DNA of 36,447 nucleotides, taken from contig QKCF01000262.1 in assembly GCA_003246935.1 (NCBI GenBank), forward strand, positions 1-36,447, read 5' to 3'. The translations under genes were made by a program, and so were the position numbers. Below the pieces are notes generated by a model. The model was not told the origin of the DNA, did not search any database, and worked only from the letters and a program-made list of their open reading frames with translations. This document shows positions 4 to 29,944 of the stretch, piece by piece (the first letter of the stretch is position 1; each line of letters starts with the position of its first letter). This stretch comes from Sunxiuqinia sp. Its GTDB lineage: Bacteria; Bacteroidota; Bacteroidia; Bacteroidales; Prolixibacteraceae.

Positions 4-1593
4 ATGGGATCTACGCCTCAGGTCCCCGGTGCAGTAGCTATTTTTAACTCCAGTGGCATTGCTTTCGGAACACTTGGCGGCGGAATTCTGGAAGCTAAAG
101 CTGAACGGCTCGCGATCGAAGCTATCAATTCAAAACAAACGATTCTCCACGAAATCAACTTTAAATCCAAAATTGACGATCAATCCGGTGCTATATGCGG
201 CGGTTCTGCCCTCTTTCTACTCGATGCCAATCCAAAGGCCAGCTATTCGGTTTTCAAACAAATAAACGATTCCCTGCAGCAAAACACTCCCGGAGTTCTT
301 CTCACCGAAATTATCCAAATATCGGAATCAGCAATTACACTAAACCGATACTGGGTCAAAGCGGATGACAAAATTCCCGAAATACTGGTATCTCAATATA
401 AGCTATCGAAAAACACACTCGCTGAAATCCGAAACACGAAAAAAAACGGAATTCTGAATCATCCGGATAACCCACATTACAAGAAAATAGAATCCATCCT
501 GTTTGCACAGGCCACTGTCCCTCCCCCTCAACTGATCATCGCAGGAGCTGGCCACATTGGCCAGGCACTTTGCCATTTGGGACACTTTCTGGGTTTTGAA
601 GTCACCGTGCTGGATAACCGGCCGGATTTGGCCACAACCAAACGTTTCCCTGAAGCAAGCCGATTGATTGTCAAAAATATGAAAGAAGCTTTTGAGGATG
701 TACCGATTTCGAAGAACTCTTTCGTTGTTATTGTCACACAAGGGCATCGAACCGATATGGAAGCTTTGGCTGCATGCATTCATTCGGATGCCAACTATAT
801 CGGGATGATTGGCAGCAAACGCAAAATTGCACTTGTACATGATCATTTCATCAGCCAGGGCATCTGCAGTGATGATGATTTTAAACGGGTTCATGCCCCC
901 ATTGGTTTGGATATTCATTCAGTCACTGTTCCCGAAATTGCAACCAGCATTGCCGCTCAGCTAATCGAAGTCAAAAACCGGGAAACAAAGTCATCCACTC
1001 CTCCCCCCGTTTGGTGCATGGTACTCGCCGCCGGAAAGTCAACAAGAATGAAACAACAAAAACTATTGATGTGGTGGAACGGGCAGACAATCATCGAAAC
1101 CGTCGTCCAAAAAGCATTGGACTCGTTTACCGAAAAAGTGTTAATTGTTACCGGCAGCCACAACGAAGAAATCAAAAATCAAATCCGCCAAATGCCGGTT
1201 TTAACTATTAAAAATAAAGATTTCGCGAATGGCATGTTATCCTCCGTCCAATGCGGAATTCAAGCCGTCCCCGGCGAAGTCGGTGCCGTTATAATCATGC
1301 TTGGCGACCAGCCTATGATTGAAACCAAATTAATTAACCAACTCATCCGGGCATGGCAAGAAACCCATAAAGGACTAATTGTGCCTGTTTGGAAAGGGAA
1401 ACGAGGCCATCCGCTTTTAATCGACCTGAAATTCAGAAACGATATTAACCTGCTCGATCAAAATATCGGTTTGCGCGAACTGCTATTAAATCATCCCGAA
1501 GAGATCCTAGAACTTGACGTCGCTTCTGATACTATTCTGAAAGATATTGACACCCCTGAAGATTACCAAAAAGAACTAAACCTAAAAGTCTGA
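4..1593 (+). CDS. XdhC/CoxF-family protein fused to a C-terminal MobA-like nucleotidyltransferase (5' end probably cut by the window edge)
   Basis: ORF starts within a typical XdhC motif (GSTPQVPGA), has a Rossmann segment (LIIAGAGHIGQALCHLGHFLGFEVTVLDNR), then an NTP-transferase segment (VWCMVLAAGKSTRMKQQKLLMWW ... MLGDQPMI). Confidence 0.88.
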   Translation: MGSTPQVPGAVAIFNSSGIAFGTLGGGILEAKAERLAIEAINSKQTILHEINFKSKIDDQSGAICGGSALFLLDANPKASYSVFKQINDSLQQNTPGVLLTEIIQISESAITLNRYWVKADDKIPEILVSQYKLSKNTLAEIRNTKKNGILNHPDNPHYKKIESILFAQATVPPPQLIIAGAGHIGQALCHLGHFLGFEVTVLDNRPDLATTKRFPEASRLIVKNMKEAFEDVPISKNSFVVIVTQGHRTDMEALAACIHSDANYIGMIGSKRKIALVHDHFISQGICSDDDFKRVHAPIGLDIHSVTVPEIATSIAAQLIEVKNRETKSSTPPPVWCMVLAAGKSTRMKQQKLLMWWNGQTIIETVVQKALDSFTEKVLIVTGSHNEEIKNQIRQMPVLTIKNKDFANGMLSSVQCGIQAVPGEVGAVIIMLGDQPMIETKLINQLIRAWQETHKGLIVPVWKGKRGHPLLIDLKFRNDINLLDQNIGLRELLLNHPEEILELDVASDTILKDIDTPEDYQKELNLKV

Positions 1594-1594
1594 T

Positions 1595-2077
<483 letters not shown>

Positions 2078-2096
2078 TTGAAAAATCGATCCGATC

Positions 2097-4250
2097 ATGA
2101 AAGAAACTAAAGAATACAACGAATATACCGCCGGTGAAACTTCCGTTCCCGGCTTGCGAAGAAGAGACTTTTTCAAATTATTGGGCGGAGGTTTGTATGT
2201 CTTTTTTAATGTCACCGATGCCCTCAACGTTCTGGCAACCGAGTCAGAACAGCGCAGATCGTTGCCAACCGATTACAATGCATTTTTGCTGATCCATGAA
2301 GACGGTACTGTCTCTTGCTATACCGGAAAAATCGAAATGGGTCAGGGCGTAATTACTTCGCTGGCCCAGATGCTGGCCGACGAGCTGGATGTGGCCTACG
2401 AAAAAGTAAAAATGGTTATGGGAGATACAATGCTTTGTCCTTGGGACATGGGTACTTTTGGTTCCATGTCGACCCGCTTCTTTGGTCCGCCGTTGCGTGC
2501 CGCTGCAGCCGAAGCCCTGGCTGTTCTTTTGGATATGGCTGCAGAAAAACTTGGCATTTCTGCGGAGCAGCTAACAGTTGAAGACGGAGTGATCATCAGC
2601 AAACAAGATAAAGGGAAAAAAATTGCTTACCGGGAACTAACTTCAGGAAAAAAAATAGAACGTTACCTTGACCAGAAGCCCGAAGTGAAAGATTACTCGG
2701 AATTCCGGATCATGGGAAAATCATTCAACCATCAGGATGGTCGTCTAAAAGTAACCGGTGAAGCCAAATACACAGCCGACATTCGTGTGCCTGGCATGTT
2801 GTATGCCCGAATCTTACGCCCGCCTTCACACGGAGCCAAATTGGTTTCGGTCGATACATCAGAGGCAGAAAAACAGGATGGTGTTTTGGTGGTAAAAGAC
2901 CGTGACCTCATAGCTGTCCTGCACGAAAACCCGGAGAAAGCAGAAGAATCCCGCGATAAAATTAAGGCTGAATACGAATTCGATGAGAAAGACGTGAACG
3001 ATCAAAACCTGTTCGACTACCTTTTGAAAAATGCCCCGGAAGGACAAATCATTAACAGTCAAGGGGATTTAGACATAGGAAAAAGGATGGTTGACACGCT
3101 TGTTGAATCGGAATATTACAACAGCTATGTTGCGCATGCAACCATGGAAACGCACGCAGCATTGGCGCATATTGAAGATGAAAAGATCACTGTCTGGGCA
3201 TCAACCCAGACACCATTTCCTGCGCAAGAGACCATTTCCCGAGTAACCGGGTTTCCGCTTGAAAATGTCCGCATCATTCCTCCGTTTCTCGGAGGAGGAT
3301 TCGGAGGAAAAACCGCCCATAGCCAGGCCGTTGAAGCTGCCCGACTGGCCAAAATAACCGGCAAACCCGTTATGGTAGACTGGAGCCGTGAGGAAGAATT
3401 TTTTTACGACACATTCCGCCCGGCTGCTGTTGTACAAATTTCAACAGGAACTGACGCCAGTGGTAAAATCAACCTTTGGGATTACAAAGAGTATTATGCC
3501 GGAGAACGGGGATCTGATACCATTTATGACGTTCCTCACCAACGCACAATGGCTTTTGGCAGAGGATGGCGGGCACCCGAAGTTCATCCGTTTGCAACAG
3601 GAGCATGGCGGGCGCCTGGCAACAATACCAACACCTTTGCCCGCGAATCGCAAATTGATATAATGGCTGCCAAAGCTCAAACGGACCCCATCGAATTTCG
3701 GCTGAAAAACCTGACCGACCAACGGATGATCGGGGTACTGAAAGAGGTTGCTGAAAAAGCAGGATGGAAACCGGCGGCATCACCTAGTGGAAGAGGCTTC
3801 GGCGTAGCCTGCGGGTTCGATGCCGGAGCACACGTTGCCCATATTGCTGAAGTTGAAGTAGACCAAGCCACAGGACGAGTACAGGTAAAACGTGTTGTTT
3901 GTGCCCAGGACATGGGCTTCTGCATCAACCCTGAGGGAGCTACCATTCAAATGGAAGGCTGTATCAACATGGGGCTGGGCTATTCACTGACAGAAGAAGT
4001 TAAGTTTACCGGAGGAAAAATTGAAACGAAAGATTTTAGCAGCTATCAGCTTCCGCGGTTTTCATGGATCCCCAAGATTGAAACGCATATCCTCGAATTA
4101 AACGAGCCGCCTCAAGGTGGTGGCGAACCGGCAATCATCTGCATGGGAGCAGTGATTGCCAATGCCATTTTTGATGCTACAGGCGCCCGCCTTTACCATT
4201 TACCAATGACACCGGATAGAGTGCTGGATGCCCTGAAAAATAAATTATAA
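2097..4250 (+). CDS. Molybdopterin-binding (large) subunit of a xanthine dehydrogenase-family aldehyde/isoquinoline oxidoreductase
   Basis: Motifs GKIEMGQGVITSLAQMLADELD, GGGFGGKTAHSQAVEAARLAKITGKPV, GAWRAPGNN; Tat-like RRRDFFKLLGGG near the N-terminus. Confidence 0.93.
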   Translation: MKETKEYNEYTAGETSVPGLRRRDFFKLLGGGLYVFFNVTDALNVLATESEQRRSLPTDYNAFLLIHEDGTVSCYTGKIEMGQGVITSLAQMLADELDVAYEKVKMVMGDTMLCPWDMGTFGSMSTRFFGPPLRAAAAEALAVLLDMAAEKLGISAEQLTVEDGVIISKQDKGKKIAYRELTSGKKIERYLDQKPEVKDYSEFRIMGKSFNHQDGRLKVTGEAKYTADIRVPGMLYARILRPPSHGAKLVSVDTSEAEKQDGVLVVKDRDLIAVLHENPEKAEESRDKIKAEYEFDEKDVNDQNLFDYLLKNAPEGQIINSQGDLDIGKRMVDTLVESEYYNSYVAHATMETHAALAHIEDEKITVWASTQTPFPAQETISRVTGFPLENVRIIPPFLGGGFGGKTAHSQAVEAARLAKITGKPVMVDWSREEEFFYDTFRPAAVVQISTGTDASGKINLWDYKEYYAGERGSDTIYDVPHQRTMAFGRGWRAPEVHPFATGAWRAPGNNTNTFARESQIDIMAAKAQTDPIEFRLKNLTDQRMIGVLKEVAEKAGWKPAASPSGRGFGVACGFDAGAHVAHIAEVEVDQATGRVQVKRVVCAQDMGFCINPEGATIQMEGCINMGLGYSLTEEVKFTGGKIETKDFSSYQLPRFSWIPKIETHILELNEPPQGGGEPAIICMGAVIANAIFDATGARLYHLPMTPDRVLDALKNKL

Positions 4251-24969: not shown

Positions 24970-25575
24970 CTATTCGCTTTTAGCAACTCCAATCACACCG
25001 ATTGCAACGCGTTTTCCGGCTGCTCCGGTTGGCTGCGAAACCAAATCATCCTCATCTGCATGCACAATAATTCCACGCCCCAAAATTGATTCAACGCCAC
25101 TGAAAGTCATTCCGGGGTACGTAACCTCATAAATTGCTACGCCTGCTTCGTTGGCTTCCAAGTTACCTAGATCGCCCACATGACGCATTTCCCCATGTGG
25201 AGCACCGTGATCGTGACCGGTTGGGTTAAAGTGCCCTCCTGCCGATGTACCATCGGGAGCAGTTACATCGCCATACTGGTGGATATGAAATCCGTGTTTG
25301 CCCGGTGTTAATCCGCTCACCTCTGCTTTCACAACCATTCCTGCATCCGTTTTCGTAAAAGTAATTGTGCCAGTAACTTCATTCCCTGCAGTGGGTTGAA
25401 GCACACAAATAGCCTTAGTAACACCATTATCAGGTGCAGACTGCACATTGTCGGTGATTACCATACCGTGATCGTGTTCGGCTTCTGTTTTTGTCCCCGA
25501 ATTACAGGCTTGTACTGCAAAAACAACGACCGCAGATAAAAAAGTCAATCTCAAAAATTTTCTGGTTTTCATCAT
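24970..25575 (-). CDS. sodC: Cu/Zn superoxide dismutase (lipoprotein)
   Basis: Lipobox VFAVQACNSG; GKHGFHIHQYGDVTAPDGTSAGGHFNPTGHDHGAPHGEMRHVGDLGNL, IVHADEDDL. Confidence 0.95.
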   Translation of the reverse strand: MMKTRKFLRLTFLSAVVVFAVQACNSGTKTEAEHDHGMVITDNVQSAPDNGVTKAICVLQPTAGNEVTGTITFTKTDAGMVVKAEVSGLTPGKHGFHIHQYGDVTAPDGTSAGGHFNPTGHDHGAPHGEMRHVGDLGNLEANEAGVAIYEVTYPGMTFSGVESILGRGIIVHADEDDLVSQPTGAAGKRVAIGVIGVAKSE

Positions 25576-25808
25576 CGTACATATTTTGTTTTACTTTTCT
25601 TATAAACTCATAACTACGCAGATTGTTTTTAGATATGCAAGTCTTTTAATAAGCAAATAATTTCAACGCAGCAGCAAGTTCACACTGACGAGCAAAACCC
25701 AAGAACCAAAGTCGATACAACTTGTTTTATAGCATGTGATAAAAGCATTACAAATATTCGAGTCCTGACTCAATAAATATAGATATTTGTATATTTGAAT
25801 TCAGAATA

Positions 25809-25920
25809 CTCCGAGTTTAATCAGCTAAGTGCAACGCATAAGCTTTTTAAACCGATGGGTTAAAGCGGAAACGATTTAGCCTCCCGATTTCGTCAGAGGG
25901 CGAATGACTTTGGAAAGGAG
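25809..25920 (+). ncRNA. Structured leader of the molybdenum cofactor operon, candidate Moco-type riboswitch aptamer
   Basis: Closing CTCC(25809-25812)/GGAG(25917-25920); helix GCTAAGT(25824-25830)/ATTTAGC(25874-25880); hairpin GCTTT-TTA-AACC-GATG-GGTT-AAAGC (25842-25866); GAAA tetraloop candidate CGGAAACG; followed by a terminator hairpin and the Moco genes. Confidence 0.55.
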
Positions 25921-25963
25921 AAGAAAATGGCTCATATTTGATTAGTATAAATTGCCAGAAATT

Positions 25964-25993
25964 CCCCTTTTCATAAACAGAGAAGGGGTTTTT
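25964..25993 (+). terminator. Leader terminator hairpin just upstream of the mobB-like gene
   Basis: CCCCTTTTC-ATAAACA-GAGAAGGGG then TTTTTC, ending about 12 nt before the ATG at 26006. Confidence 0.75.
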
Positions 25994-26005
25994 CATTTTT
26001 AGATT

Positions 26006-26539
26006 ATGAAACAAAAATGGGCAAACATACTATTAATTGCAGGTTCTGGGCAAAACTCCGGGAAAACAACATTCATCTGCCAGTTGCTTGAGCAGCTGAG
26101 GCGTTTTGCGCCAATTGCCGTTAAAGTATCACATCACTTCTACGATCCAACTCCCGGTTTAAAATTGATAGCGGAAGAAGACGGCTTTCAACTTTTCGAG
26201 GAGACCAACAGAACAACGAACAAAGACAGTTCGCTTTATCTCCAACATGGAGCACTGCGGTCTTTTTACATTCAATGCAAGGATGAGAAATTACAAAGGG
26301 CATTTATATCGCTTCTTCCCTACCTGGAAGCCGATCAACCAGTTTTGATCGAATCAGCAGCTTTGCACCACATCATCGACGCCGGTCTTTTTGTACTCGT
26401 CGTCAACGAAAGTTTGAAGCCCAAACCGGCGACTGAAATTAACCGAAAAATTGCCGATGTAATTGTCGTCTCTGACGGACGGCAATTTACGCCAGCGCCG
26501 GATCAATTAATTTTTGATACAACATGGAGAAAAGAATAG
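26006..26539 (+). CDS. MobB-like P-loop GTP-binding protein (molybdopterin-guanine dinucleotide biosynthesis-related)
   Basis: LLIAGSGQNSGKTTFICQLLEQLRRFAPIAVKVSHH; first gene of a Moco cluster. Confidence 0.75.
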   Translation: MKQKWANILLIAGSGQNSGKTTFICQLLEQLRRFAPIAVKVSHHFYDPTPGLKLIAEEDGFQLFEETNRTTNKDSSLYLQHGALRSFYIQCKDEKLQRAFISLLPYLEADQPVLIESAALHHIIDAGLFVLVVNESLKPKPATEINRKIADVIVVSDGRQFTPAPDQLIFDTTWRKE

Positions 26540-27714
26540 GTATAAACTTACAAGAAGCACTGACACTCGCATTTGAATGTGCACATTCCCTGCCAACTGA
26601 AAAAGTTGATTACATCAGCTCTGCCGGGCGAATATTGGCAACCGATGTTTATTCTGATGTCAACATGCCGCCCTTCAATAAATCGGCTATGGATGGTTAT
26701 GCTTGCAGAAAAGAAGATTTAGGCAACTGGCTTGATATGCTGGAAGTAATTCCGGCGGGGCGCTCTCCCCAATATGAAATAGCAGTTGGCAAATGCTCGA
26801 AAATAATGACAGGGGCCGAAGTTCCGGCCGGAGCCGATACGGTATTCATGATTGAACAGAGCGAAACGGATAACTTGGGACGTGTGCGTTTTACAGGCAC
26901 AAAAACGAACAGTAATATTTGTCTTTTAGGTGAAGACGTAAAAACCGGCGATCGGGTTTTAAAAACTGGCACTATGCTTAAAGCACAACACATTGCGATG
27001 TTGGCTTCGGTTGGATGCACACAGCCCGAAGTTTACCACAAACCAAAGGTTGGAATTATCTCAACTGGCTCCGAATTGATTGAACCTGAAGCATTTCCAC
27101 AAGCATCACAGATCCGCAACTCAAACGGTCACCAAATACGCGTGCAGGCGGCACAATGTAGTTGTAATGTGAATTATTACGGCACTGTAATGGATGATCA
27201 AGAAAGTACGCGAAAAATAATTTCCCAATCGGTCGATGAAAACGACGTTACCCTAATCTCCGGCGGTGTTTCGGTAGGCGATTTCGACTACGTTCAGCAA
27301 ATCATTGAACAATTAGGCTTTGCAATCCAGTTCAATCAAATAATTGTAAAACCCGGGAAACACACCACGTTTGCAAGCAACAATAACAAATATATTATCG
27401 GGCTGCCGGGAAACCCGGTTTCGTCGTTTATTCAGTTTGATATTTTTGCAAAACCGTTCTTATACAGACTGATGAACTACACCACGCCAGATTTAAAACT
27501 ACCTTTACCTTTGGCTGCCGACTACCAACGGAAAAAAGCCGACCGCGAAGAGTTTATCCCGGTCAAAATAAACGATCAAAACGAGGTTGAAACGATTCGT
27601 TATCACGGATCAGCACATATACACGCCTACCACGAAGCTTCAGGTTATATGAGTATTCCGGAAGGTATTTCTACAATTAAGAAAGGAGATACGGTATATG
27701 TTAGACCGTTATAA
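26524..27714 (+). CDS. moeA: Molybdopterin molybdenumtransferase MoeA
   Basis: DVNMPPFNKSAMDGYA, IMTGAEVPAGADTVFMIEQ, GIISTGSELIEPE, IVKPGKHTTFA...IGLPGNPVSSFIQFDIFAKPFL. Confidence 0.96.
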   Translation: MEKRIGINLQEALTLAFECAHSLPTEKVDYISSAGRILATDVYSDVNMPPFNKSAMDGYACRKEDLGNWLDMLEVIPAGRSPQYEIAVGKCSKIMTGAEVPAGADTVFMIEQSETDNLGRVRFTGTKTNSNICLLGEDVKTGDRVLKTGTMLKAQHIAMLASVGCTQPEVYHKPKVGIISTGSELIEPEAFPQASQIRNSNGHQIRVQAAQCSCNVNYYGTVMDDQESTRKIISQSVDENDVTLISGGVSVGDFDYVQQIIEQLGFAIQFNQIIVKPGKHTTFASNNNKYIIGLPGNPVSSFIQFDIFAKPFLYRLMNYTTPDLKLPLPLAADYQRKKADREEFIPVKINDQNEVETIRYHGSAHIHAYHEASGYMSIPEGISTIKKGDTVYVRPL

Positions 27715-28497
27715 ACGCCATATCAATTACCTGCGAATTTCTGTTACCGACCGTTGTAACCTCCGATGCACCTATTGCATGCCTGCCGACGGCGTCAAAC
27801 TAATGAAGCACGACGATTTACTTTCATTTGAAGAAATTGAAAGTTTCACCCAGTTAGCAGTCGCCAAAGGCATCTCAAAAGTGCGGTTGACAGGAGGTGA
27901 GCCGTTGGTGCGAAAAAACATCGTCGAACTGGTGCAGAGACTAGCATCAATCGAAGGATTGGAAGACCTGGCATTAACAACGAACGGGATTTTACTTCCC
28001 CAATTTGCTGAAGATCTAAAAAAAGCAGGTTTGAAACGGGTCAACATTAGCTTGGATACCCTCAATGCTGATCGTTATTGCGAGATTACAAGAACCGGAA
28101 ATATCAAGGACGTTTTCAAAGGAATAGAAGCTGCGCAAAAAGCAGGATTTCATCCGATCAAAATCAATATTGTGTTTTATTAGGTGAGCCCAATGATGAG
28201 GTTAACCAACTAAAACAATATTGCTCGGATCATCATTTAGATTTGCGCTTTATCCACCAGATGAACTTACAAAATGGTGAGTTCTCAAAAGTTGAAGGCG
28301 GAGAAGGCGGAAACTGCAGTCGTTGCAATCGAGTTCGATTGCTGGCTAACGGCGATGTAAAACCATGCCTTTTCAGTGATTTGGCTTACAATATCCGAGA
28401 ACTGGGGCACGAACAAGCTCTGAATTTGGCCATTGGCAACAAGCCTCGATCGGGAACATTCAATAAATCAGGTGAGTTTTACAACATCGGAGGATAA
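27698..28497 (+). pseudogene. moaA: GTP 3',8-cyclase MoaA with an apparent frameshift (ORFs 27698-28183 and 28078-28497)
   Basis: Frame 1: YLRISVTDRCNLRCTYCMPADG...VRLTGGEPLVRKN...HPIKINIVFY*. Frame 2 from about 28170: LLGEPNDEVNQLKQYCSDHHLDLRFIHQMN...CSRCNRVRLLANGDVKPCLF...FYNIGG. Confidence 0.88.
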
Positions 28498-28543: not shown

Positions 28544-28996
28544 ATGAAAAAACTAACACACATCGACGACGCGGGAAGAGCCAATATGGTTGATGTCGGG
28601 CACAAAAGCCAACAAAGCAGATCAGCCACAGCCGAAGGTTTCATCTCGTTGAATGCTGAAACGCTAAAATTAATTAGCGAAAACCAACTAAAAAAAGGGG
28701 ATGTGATTACAGTGGCCGAAATTGCCGGCATTCAAGGCGCCAAGCGAACCAGTGACCTCATCCCCCTTTGCCATACGCTTCTATTGACGAAAGTAGAAGT
28801 TCATTGCGAAATTAGTGACAGCGGAATAAAAGCCACGTGTACAGCAAAATGTATCGGACAAACAGGCGTTGAGATGGAAGCTTTAACAGGCGTACAAGTT
28901 GCACTGCTTACCATTTACGACATGTGCAAAGCTGTTGATAAGGCAATGGTAATTTCAGATGTTCGCTTACTCAAAAAAACAAAAACAGACCTATAA
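28544..28996 (+). CDS. moaC: Cyclic pyranopterin monophosphate synthase MoaC
   Basis: [33 protein letters not shown]...[26 protein letters not shown]...[31 protein letters not shown] at 28544. Confidence 0.96.
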
Positions 28997-29008: not shown

Positions 29009-29944
29009 ATGACAACCAATATTGCCATCCTTTCAGTCAATGTTTCCGAAAAAAAAGGCACAATTAAGAAGCCTGTTCCTCAAATAAAATTAACCGGAAT
29101 AGGTGTTGTCGGTGATGCGCATTCGGGCAATTGGCATCGACAGGTAAGTCTGCTTGCAAAGGAAAGTATCGATAAATTTGCAATCGAAGCAGGACGACAA
29201 ATCAAATTTGGAGAATTTGCCGAAAACATCACCACTGAAGGTTTACTCCTTCACACAACAAAACCGATGGATCGCTTTATTGGGGAGAACATTGAACTGG
29301 AAGTAACGCAAATCGGGAAAAAATGTCACGGCGATAACTGCAACATATTTCGGGAAGTTGGCAACTGTGTGATGCCAAAGGAAGGCATCTTTGCACGTGT
29401 AATCCGTCACGGGGAACTTAAAGCAGGAGAACAGCTTGCTTACCAACCACGAATTTTGAAAATCAAGATTATAACCATGAGCGATCGGGCAAGCCGCGGC
29501 GAGTATGATGACAAAAGCGGGCCACAAATCAAAAACCTCAGTCAAAAATATTTTGAAACGATCAATCGCAAGTTCCATTTCGAACAAACACTAATTCCCG
29601 ACCAAGCTGATTTATTAAAAGCGGAAATTGAAGCTGCAGTTGATGATCAGTTTGATGTAATTTTCACAACCGGAGGAACAGGAATAGGTCCGCGTGATAT
29701 CACTCCGGAAACAATACGCCCAATGCTGCACAAAGAAATCCCCGGAATTATGGAGCTCATCCGTGTAAAATACGGCATGGAAAAACCAGCAGCCTTGCTC
29801 AGCCGCGGAATCGCTGGACTAATTAAGCAAACACTCATTTATGCCATGCCGGGTAGCGTAAAAGCTGTCACTGAGTATTGCAACGAGATCTTGCCAACCA
29901 TTGAACACTCTTTATACATGATCCACGGGATCGACAGTCATTAA
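29009..29944 (+). CDS. MOSC domain fused to MogA/MoaB-like molybdopterin adenylyltransferase
   Basis: N-terminal GVVGDAHSGNWHRQVSLLAKESIDKF...FAENITTEGLLL (MOSC); C-terminal IITMSDRASRGEYDDKSGP...DVIFTTGGTGIGPRDITPETIRPML (MogA). Confidence 0.92.
   Translation: MTTNIAILSVNVSEKKGTIKKPVPQIKLTGIGVVGDAHSGNWHRQVSLLAKESIDKFAIEAGRQIKFGEFAENITTEGLLLHTTKPMDRFIGENIELEVTQIGKKCHGDNCNIFREVGNCVMPKEGIFARVIRHGELKAGEQLAYQPRILKIKIITMSDRASRGEYDDKSGPQIKNLSQKYFETINRKFHFEQTLIPDQADLLKAEIEAAVDDQFDVIFTTGGTGIGPRDITPETIRPMLHKEIPGIMELIRVKYGMEKPAALLSRGIAGLIKQTLIYAMPGSVKAVTEYCNEILPTIEHSLYMIHGIDSH

Follow-up and report, generated by a model that had tools for sequence, protein, structure and literature searches.

A P3-lacking Moco/Tuco-family riboswitch with a predicted transcription-terminating OFF platform before a molybdenum cofactor operon in Sunxiuqinia

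The stretch of DNA analysed here, called the window, is 36,447 nt of a Sunxiuqinia sp. contig (QKCF01000262.1) and carries an operon for biosynthesis of the molybdenum cofactor (Moco). The leader of that operon contains a compact foldable RNA, and an earlier note, made from the letters alone, had proposed it as a Moco-sensing OFF switch while leaving aside whether it belongs to the known riboswitch class or to a distinct one. Cmscan answers in favor of the known class, matching the leader to the full-length model of RF01055, the Moco/Tuco riboswitch, with 65.8 bits and E = 7.8 × 10−14 against a gathering score of 36 bits. The match is the single copy in the genome, and we regard membership of the leader RNA in this family as well supported. 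The leader also folds better than its own shuffles (z = −2.83, with 0/200 shuffles as good). A second Rfam match, to a PyrR site, was set aside as chance, its 21.6 bits falling short of the gathering score of 54.

The family alignment has P1, P2, P4 and P5 all present in the leader around the conserved junction, together with the GNRA tetraloop of P4 and its receptor in the P2 bulge. P1, P2 with its tetraloop receptor, the GAAA of P4, P5 and the invariant junction are the features that the leader shares with RF01055 as described by Regulski et al. 2008 (PMC2408646). Stem P3 is absent, and the P2–P4 junction consists of GAU only. Two elements of the earlier note fit into this arrangement, the CTCC/GGAG closure of the domain being P1 and the CG-GAAA-CG element being the P4 tetraloop, while two others had to be given up. 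Of the two sides of the proposed GCTAAGT/ATTTAGC pairing, CUAAG lies in P2, on its tetraloop-receptor side, and AUUUAGC makes up the 3′ strand of P4. A strong bulged hairpin at 25842-25866 would bring together the 3′ strand of P2 and the 5′ strand of P4. The helix is at odds with both the family structure and the MFE fold, and the hairpin is absent from both. The leader does have an extra hairpin inside the P5 loop, for which we coin the name P5a, pairing 25889-25894 with 25899-25904. Of the non-redundant family leaders, 55/55 have a hairpin of 4 bp or more in this loop, its stem sequence differing widely from leader to leader; in the order and phylum sets many leaders have one, though not all. 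P5a lies outside the Rfam consensus, in which the P5-loop stretch is a variable insert. It is possible that P5a substitutes for the missing P3. Coordinates are collected in Table 1.

Table 1. Features of the leader and operon, numbered by position in the window
Feature	Position	Strand	Basis or remark
Putative −7 box TATATTTG, Bacteroidota-type promoter (TAnnTTTG)	25790..25797	+	sequence
RF01055 aptamer, P3-lacking form	25797..25936	+	cmscan; P3 columns deleted
P1 5′ strand CUCC	25809..25812	+	paired with 25917-25920; 100% of cells paired
P2, internal loop CUAAG...CAUA as tetraloop receptor equivalent	25815..25852	+	CM alignment; compensatory changes
P4, GAAA tetraloop cap at 25868-25871	25857..25882	+	CM alignment; both-side changes in 4/10 pairs
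P5	25883-25884 with 25912-25913	+	CM alignment
P5a, 6 bp, loop AGAG, inside P5 loop	25889..25904	+	
Antiterminator 5′ strand GGAAAGGAGAA (P5/P1 3′ strands)	25912..25922	+	occupancy 0.97-0.99
P1 3′ strand GGAG, common to antiterminator	25917..25920	+	CM alignment, folding series
Antiterminator 3′ strand UUCCCCUUUUC, overlaps terminator 5′ arm	25962..25972	+	
Intrinsic terminator hairpin, 9 bp, 7-nt loop	25964..25988	+	
Terminator U-tract TTTTT	25989..25993	+	
MobB-like P-loop protein, first operon gene	26006..26539	+	
moeA	26524..27714	+	
moaA (short form), frameshift near 28171-28177	27698..28497	+	
moaC, start at conserved MKKLTHID	28544..28996	+	
MOSC-MogA fusion	29009..29944	+	

Downstream, the operon has the order that had been read from it, mobB-like, moeA, moaA, moaC and MOSC-MogA; moaA, however, is frameshifted. 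The gene is intact, with 265 residues, in the relatives L002, L004 and L007, and the frameshift may stem from an error in sequencing or assembling this fragmented genome. A second apparent frameshift of the same genome is seen in a PhsA/PsrA-like reductase gene (L095, G000:C347, 3339-5586), where two overlapping frames are read in place of one. At the standard cut-off the MobB-like protein itself matches no protein family, and its homologues match PF03205 MobB weakly, just below the cut-off. The MoaE gene is on a different contig of the genome. The box TATATTTG agrees with TAnnTTTG, which we take to be the Bacteroidota promoter consensus; it stands right before P1, and many relatives have it just 5′ of their aptamers, which makes a transcription start at the aptamer probable, a few bases ahead of P1. 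A search for sigma-70-type promoters, using a tool that does not include the Bacteroidota type, found none.

The same RNA precedes the same operon in five named relatives, namely two Mangrovibacterium, Sunxiuqinia elliptica and two Prolixibacter, and its placement upstream of Moco synthesis genes is that of the 2008 family as well (PMC2408646). RF01055 scores above the cut-off in 80/140 genomes of the family, 23/247 of the order sample and 19/396 of the phylum sample; a 30-bit match in genome G286 (L030), below the cut-off, contained no aptamer core and was dropped. Bacteroidota are not in the survey list of 2008 (PMC2408646), and we found no report of an RF01055 RNA from this group in the open-access literature.

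The point of interest is which cofactor such an RNA would sense. RNAs lacking P3 have been proposed to sense the tungsten cofactor (Tuco), having tracked with tungsten-related genes in 17/19 such organisms (Regulski 2008, PMC2408646). The same RNA and platform with Tuco as ligand is what the absence of P3 predicts here, and P3 is absent in all four relatives whose alignments were inspected, the P2–P4 junction being 3-6 nt in family leaders where readable. The gene content argues against it. AFOR, the best-known tungsten-enzyme family, was not found in the genome itself, which is 86% complete, or in its three congeners, and it occurs in 2/80 riboswitch-bearing family genomes, the tungsten-gene search being one for AFOR. 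Enzymes of PF00384 or PF02738 (DMSO-reductase or xanthine-dehydrogenase family) occur in 80/80 riboswitch-bearing genomes versus 26/60 without the riboswitch, the genomes not being independent of each other. PF00384-family pterin enzymes can hold tungsten. Close at hand, window positions 4-4250 at the start of the contig encode an XdhC-MocA fusion, a 2Fe-2S subunit and a xanthine-dehydrogenase-family large subunit, a molybdenum hydroxylase operon on the same contig as the riboswitch. A PhsA-like reductase, with MobA close to it, and ModA are likewise encoded in the genome, and in the relative G397 a narG cluster is found near the operon.

Because AFOR is so rare, the PF00384/PF02738 enzymes so constant and the enzymes of this genome of molybdenum type, we consider Moco clearly the likelier ligand; with an aptamer of the P3-lacking subtype, it is we who infer Moco-sensing over Tuco-sensing. 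Tuco as the ligand appears rather unlikely. The leader resembles the Tuco subtype in lacking P3 and in its site before pterin-biosynthesis genes, and differs from it in a host lineage with molybdenum-type enzymes and very little AFOR. Compared with RF01055 as first described, it differs in the absence of P3 without AFOR in the genome, and in the extra hairpin of the P5 loop. The P3 rule may fail in this lineage.

A second indication about the regulon comes from its first gene. In 23/80 family loci, and also in members of the order, the gene directly after the riboswitch encodes a TauE/SafE (PF01925) permease, examples being L096:5966-6691 and L097:4529-5257. In the two loci that were read through, the permease is followed by mobA, mobB-like, moeA, moaA, moaC and MOSC-mogA. 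ModA is lacking from 21/23 permease-first family genomes versus 4/57 comparison genomes, and it is present in 51/55 of the genomes in which the mobB-like gene comes first (Fisher p = 2.8 × 10−13 against permease-first). Genera g174 and g352 each contain both states, so a single ancient split does not account for all of it. The simplest reading, made from gene neighborhood and gene content, suggests that the permease takes over from ModABC as importer of molybdate (or tungstate); the alternative is that it exports sulfite or another sulfur compound. In the open-access literature we came across no TauE/SafE protein reported to import molybdate. The combined proposal, that P3-lacking aptamers of the Bacteroidota lineage, which carry the additional hairpin in P5, sense Moco, the absence of P3 being no mark of tungsten, and that the TauE/SafE permease of the regulon replaces ModABC, we put forward as tentative, at somewhat less than even confidence.

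How would such an aptamer act on the operon? Behind it, the 9-bp hairpin CCCCTTTTC/GAGAAGGGG that had been picked out as a terminator is followed by TTTTTC and stands 17 nt before the ATG at 26006. It is the sole terminator-like site in 25600-26100, where shuffles average 0.2. The competing pairing of the P1-side strand GAAAGGAG with CCCCTTTTC is also there as first described, and it extends to 10 pairs around one A-C mismatch. The antiterminator duplex of the window taken alone is modestly above shuffles (p = 0.02, and p = 0.11 with a shorter segment). Partition functions of growing unliganded transcripts have P1 forming first at an occupancy of 0.87. In transcripts ending at 25974-25986 the antiterminator takes over at 0.97-0.99 and P1 goes to 0, and from 25994 on P1 and the terminator win, at −54.8 kcal/mol versus −52.0 kcal/mol for the full leader folded with the antiterminator, energies that leave out ligand, tertiary contacts and kinetics. 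The aptamer strand, antiterminator and terminator are mutually exclusive in these computations. From this order of events, a ligand that holds P1 would expose the terminator, which agrees with the OFF logic of the earlier note, where stabilizing the closing helix frees the terminator. The relatives behave alike: in a set of 12 non-redundant terminator-bearing leaders, that of the window among them, antiterminator occupancy reaches at least 0.9 en route in 11, versus 8/144 platform-shuffled leaders, and L090 is the one relative that does not exhibit the computed switch.

The helices are also conserved. Over 13 leaders with the architecture of the window, with P5a counted as helix 6, the aptamer and terminator helices keep 88.8% of their pairs and have 17 pairs changed on both sides; 0/500 shuffles reach either value, and slid versions pair at 37-59%. 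The pair count of the antiterminator helix does not exceed that of its own shuffles, and every slid version pairs less. Its core is uninformative for covariation because the 5′ strand is invariant, fixed by the aptamer. The 3′ flank of the antiterminator does vary, with pairing kept as GAAU/AUUC (L002), GAUAA/UUAUC (L111) and GAGGCA/UGCC (L125), and there is an 11-bp match in L011, the leader of another class.

Terminators lie behind the aptamer in 17/55 non-redundant family leaders versus 1.8 expected from shuffles. The other 38 have no recognizable terminator, which indicates that the expression platform varies within the family. In one genus (L088, L089, L099 and L115) there is no intrinsic terminator downstream of the aptamer, and a GAGC...GCTCCTTCCCTTCC element is complementary to the 3′ region of P1; its complementarity suggests another expression platform there.

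We hold it very likely that the mobB-like-moeA-moaA-moaC-MOSC/mogA operon is under the control of a P3-lacking RF01055 member whose OFF platform terminates transcription. With no ligand, once the transcript is past about 25974, the 3′ strands of P5 and P1 (GGAAAGGAGAA) would desert the aptamer for UUCCCCUUUUC, the antiterminator would mask the terminator's 5′ arm, and transcription would run on into the operon. With the cofactor bound, P1 would be held closed and the 5′ arm left free, the 9-bp terminator would form, and transcription would end before the first gene when the cofactor is plentiful. Binding of the ligand and an actual change in termination are steps that we infer from the computed folds.

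Control of translation by a P1 that sequesters a ribosome binding site, the mechanism proposed for E. coli moaA, is improbable. The AAAGGAG in the 3′ strand of P1 does resemble a Shine-Dalgarno sequence, and a 4-codon ORF (ATG GCT CAT ATT TGA, 25927-25941) comes right behind P1, but this ORF is missing in L004 and L117, and the first gene begins 85 nt past P1, beyond the terminator. Bacteroidota, moreover, seldom use Shine-Dalgarno pairing. The E. coli moaA RNA shares the aptamer family and the controlled pathway with the present leader and is repressed when Moco is made, but it has P3 and is described with its ribosome binding site inside P1 (PMC2408646). For E. coli moaA, too, early termination is indicated by RNA-seq and by data on Rho (PMC12121620, PMC7815308), through a platform other than the intrinsic terminator seen in the present leader. 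Least probable of all is a terminator that has nothing to do with the aptamer and serves as a constitutive attenuator or ends a transcript from upstream: intergenic terminators are common and one of the 12 relatives does not show the computed switch, but the upstream gene, Cu/Zn superoxide dismutase-like (24970-25575, minus strand), points away from the leader, and the terminator, with a 3′ arm that varies, keeps in its 5′ arm a complementarity to the invariant GGAAAGGAG strand of the aptamer that beats shuffles at a combined Fisher p = 4.5 × 10−8, overstated because the leaders share descent.

The aptamer family, the P3-lacking subtype and terminator platforms (PMC2408646) are all already known, and the interest here lies in the TauE/SafE permease and in the clash with the P3 rule. 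The switch favored above, with its transcription-terminating platform, would place a complete, conserved Moco-family OFF switch in Bacteroidota, where it is open to a termination assay. Through its position in the regulon, the riboswitch points to an uncharacterized permease as a candidate molybdate importer. Since its P3-lacking RNAs occur together with molybdenum-type enzymes and almost no AFOR, the lineage lends itself to a natural test of whether P3 divides molybdenum-sensing from tungsten-sensing RNAs, as was proposed in 2008.
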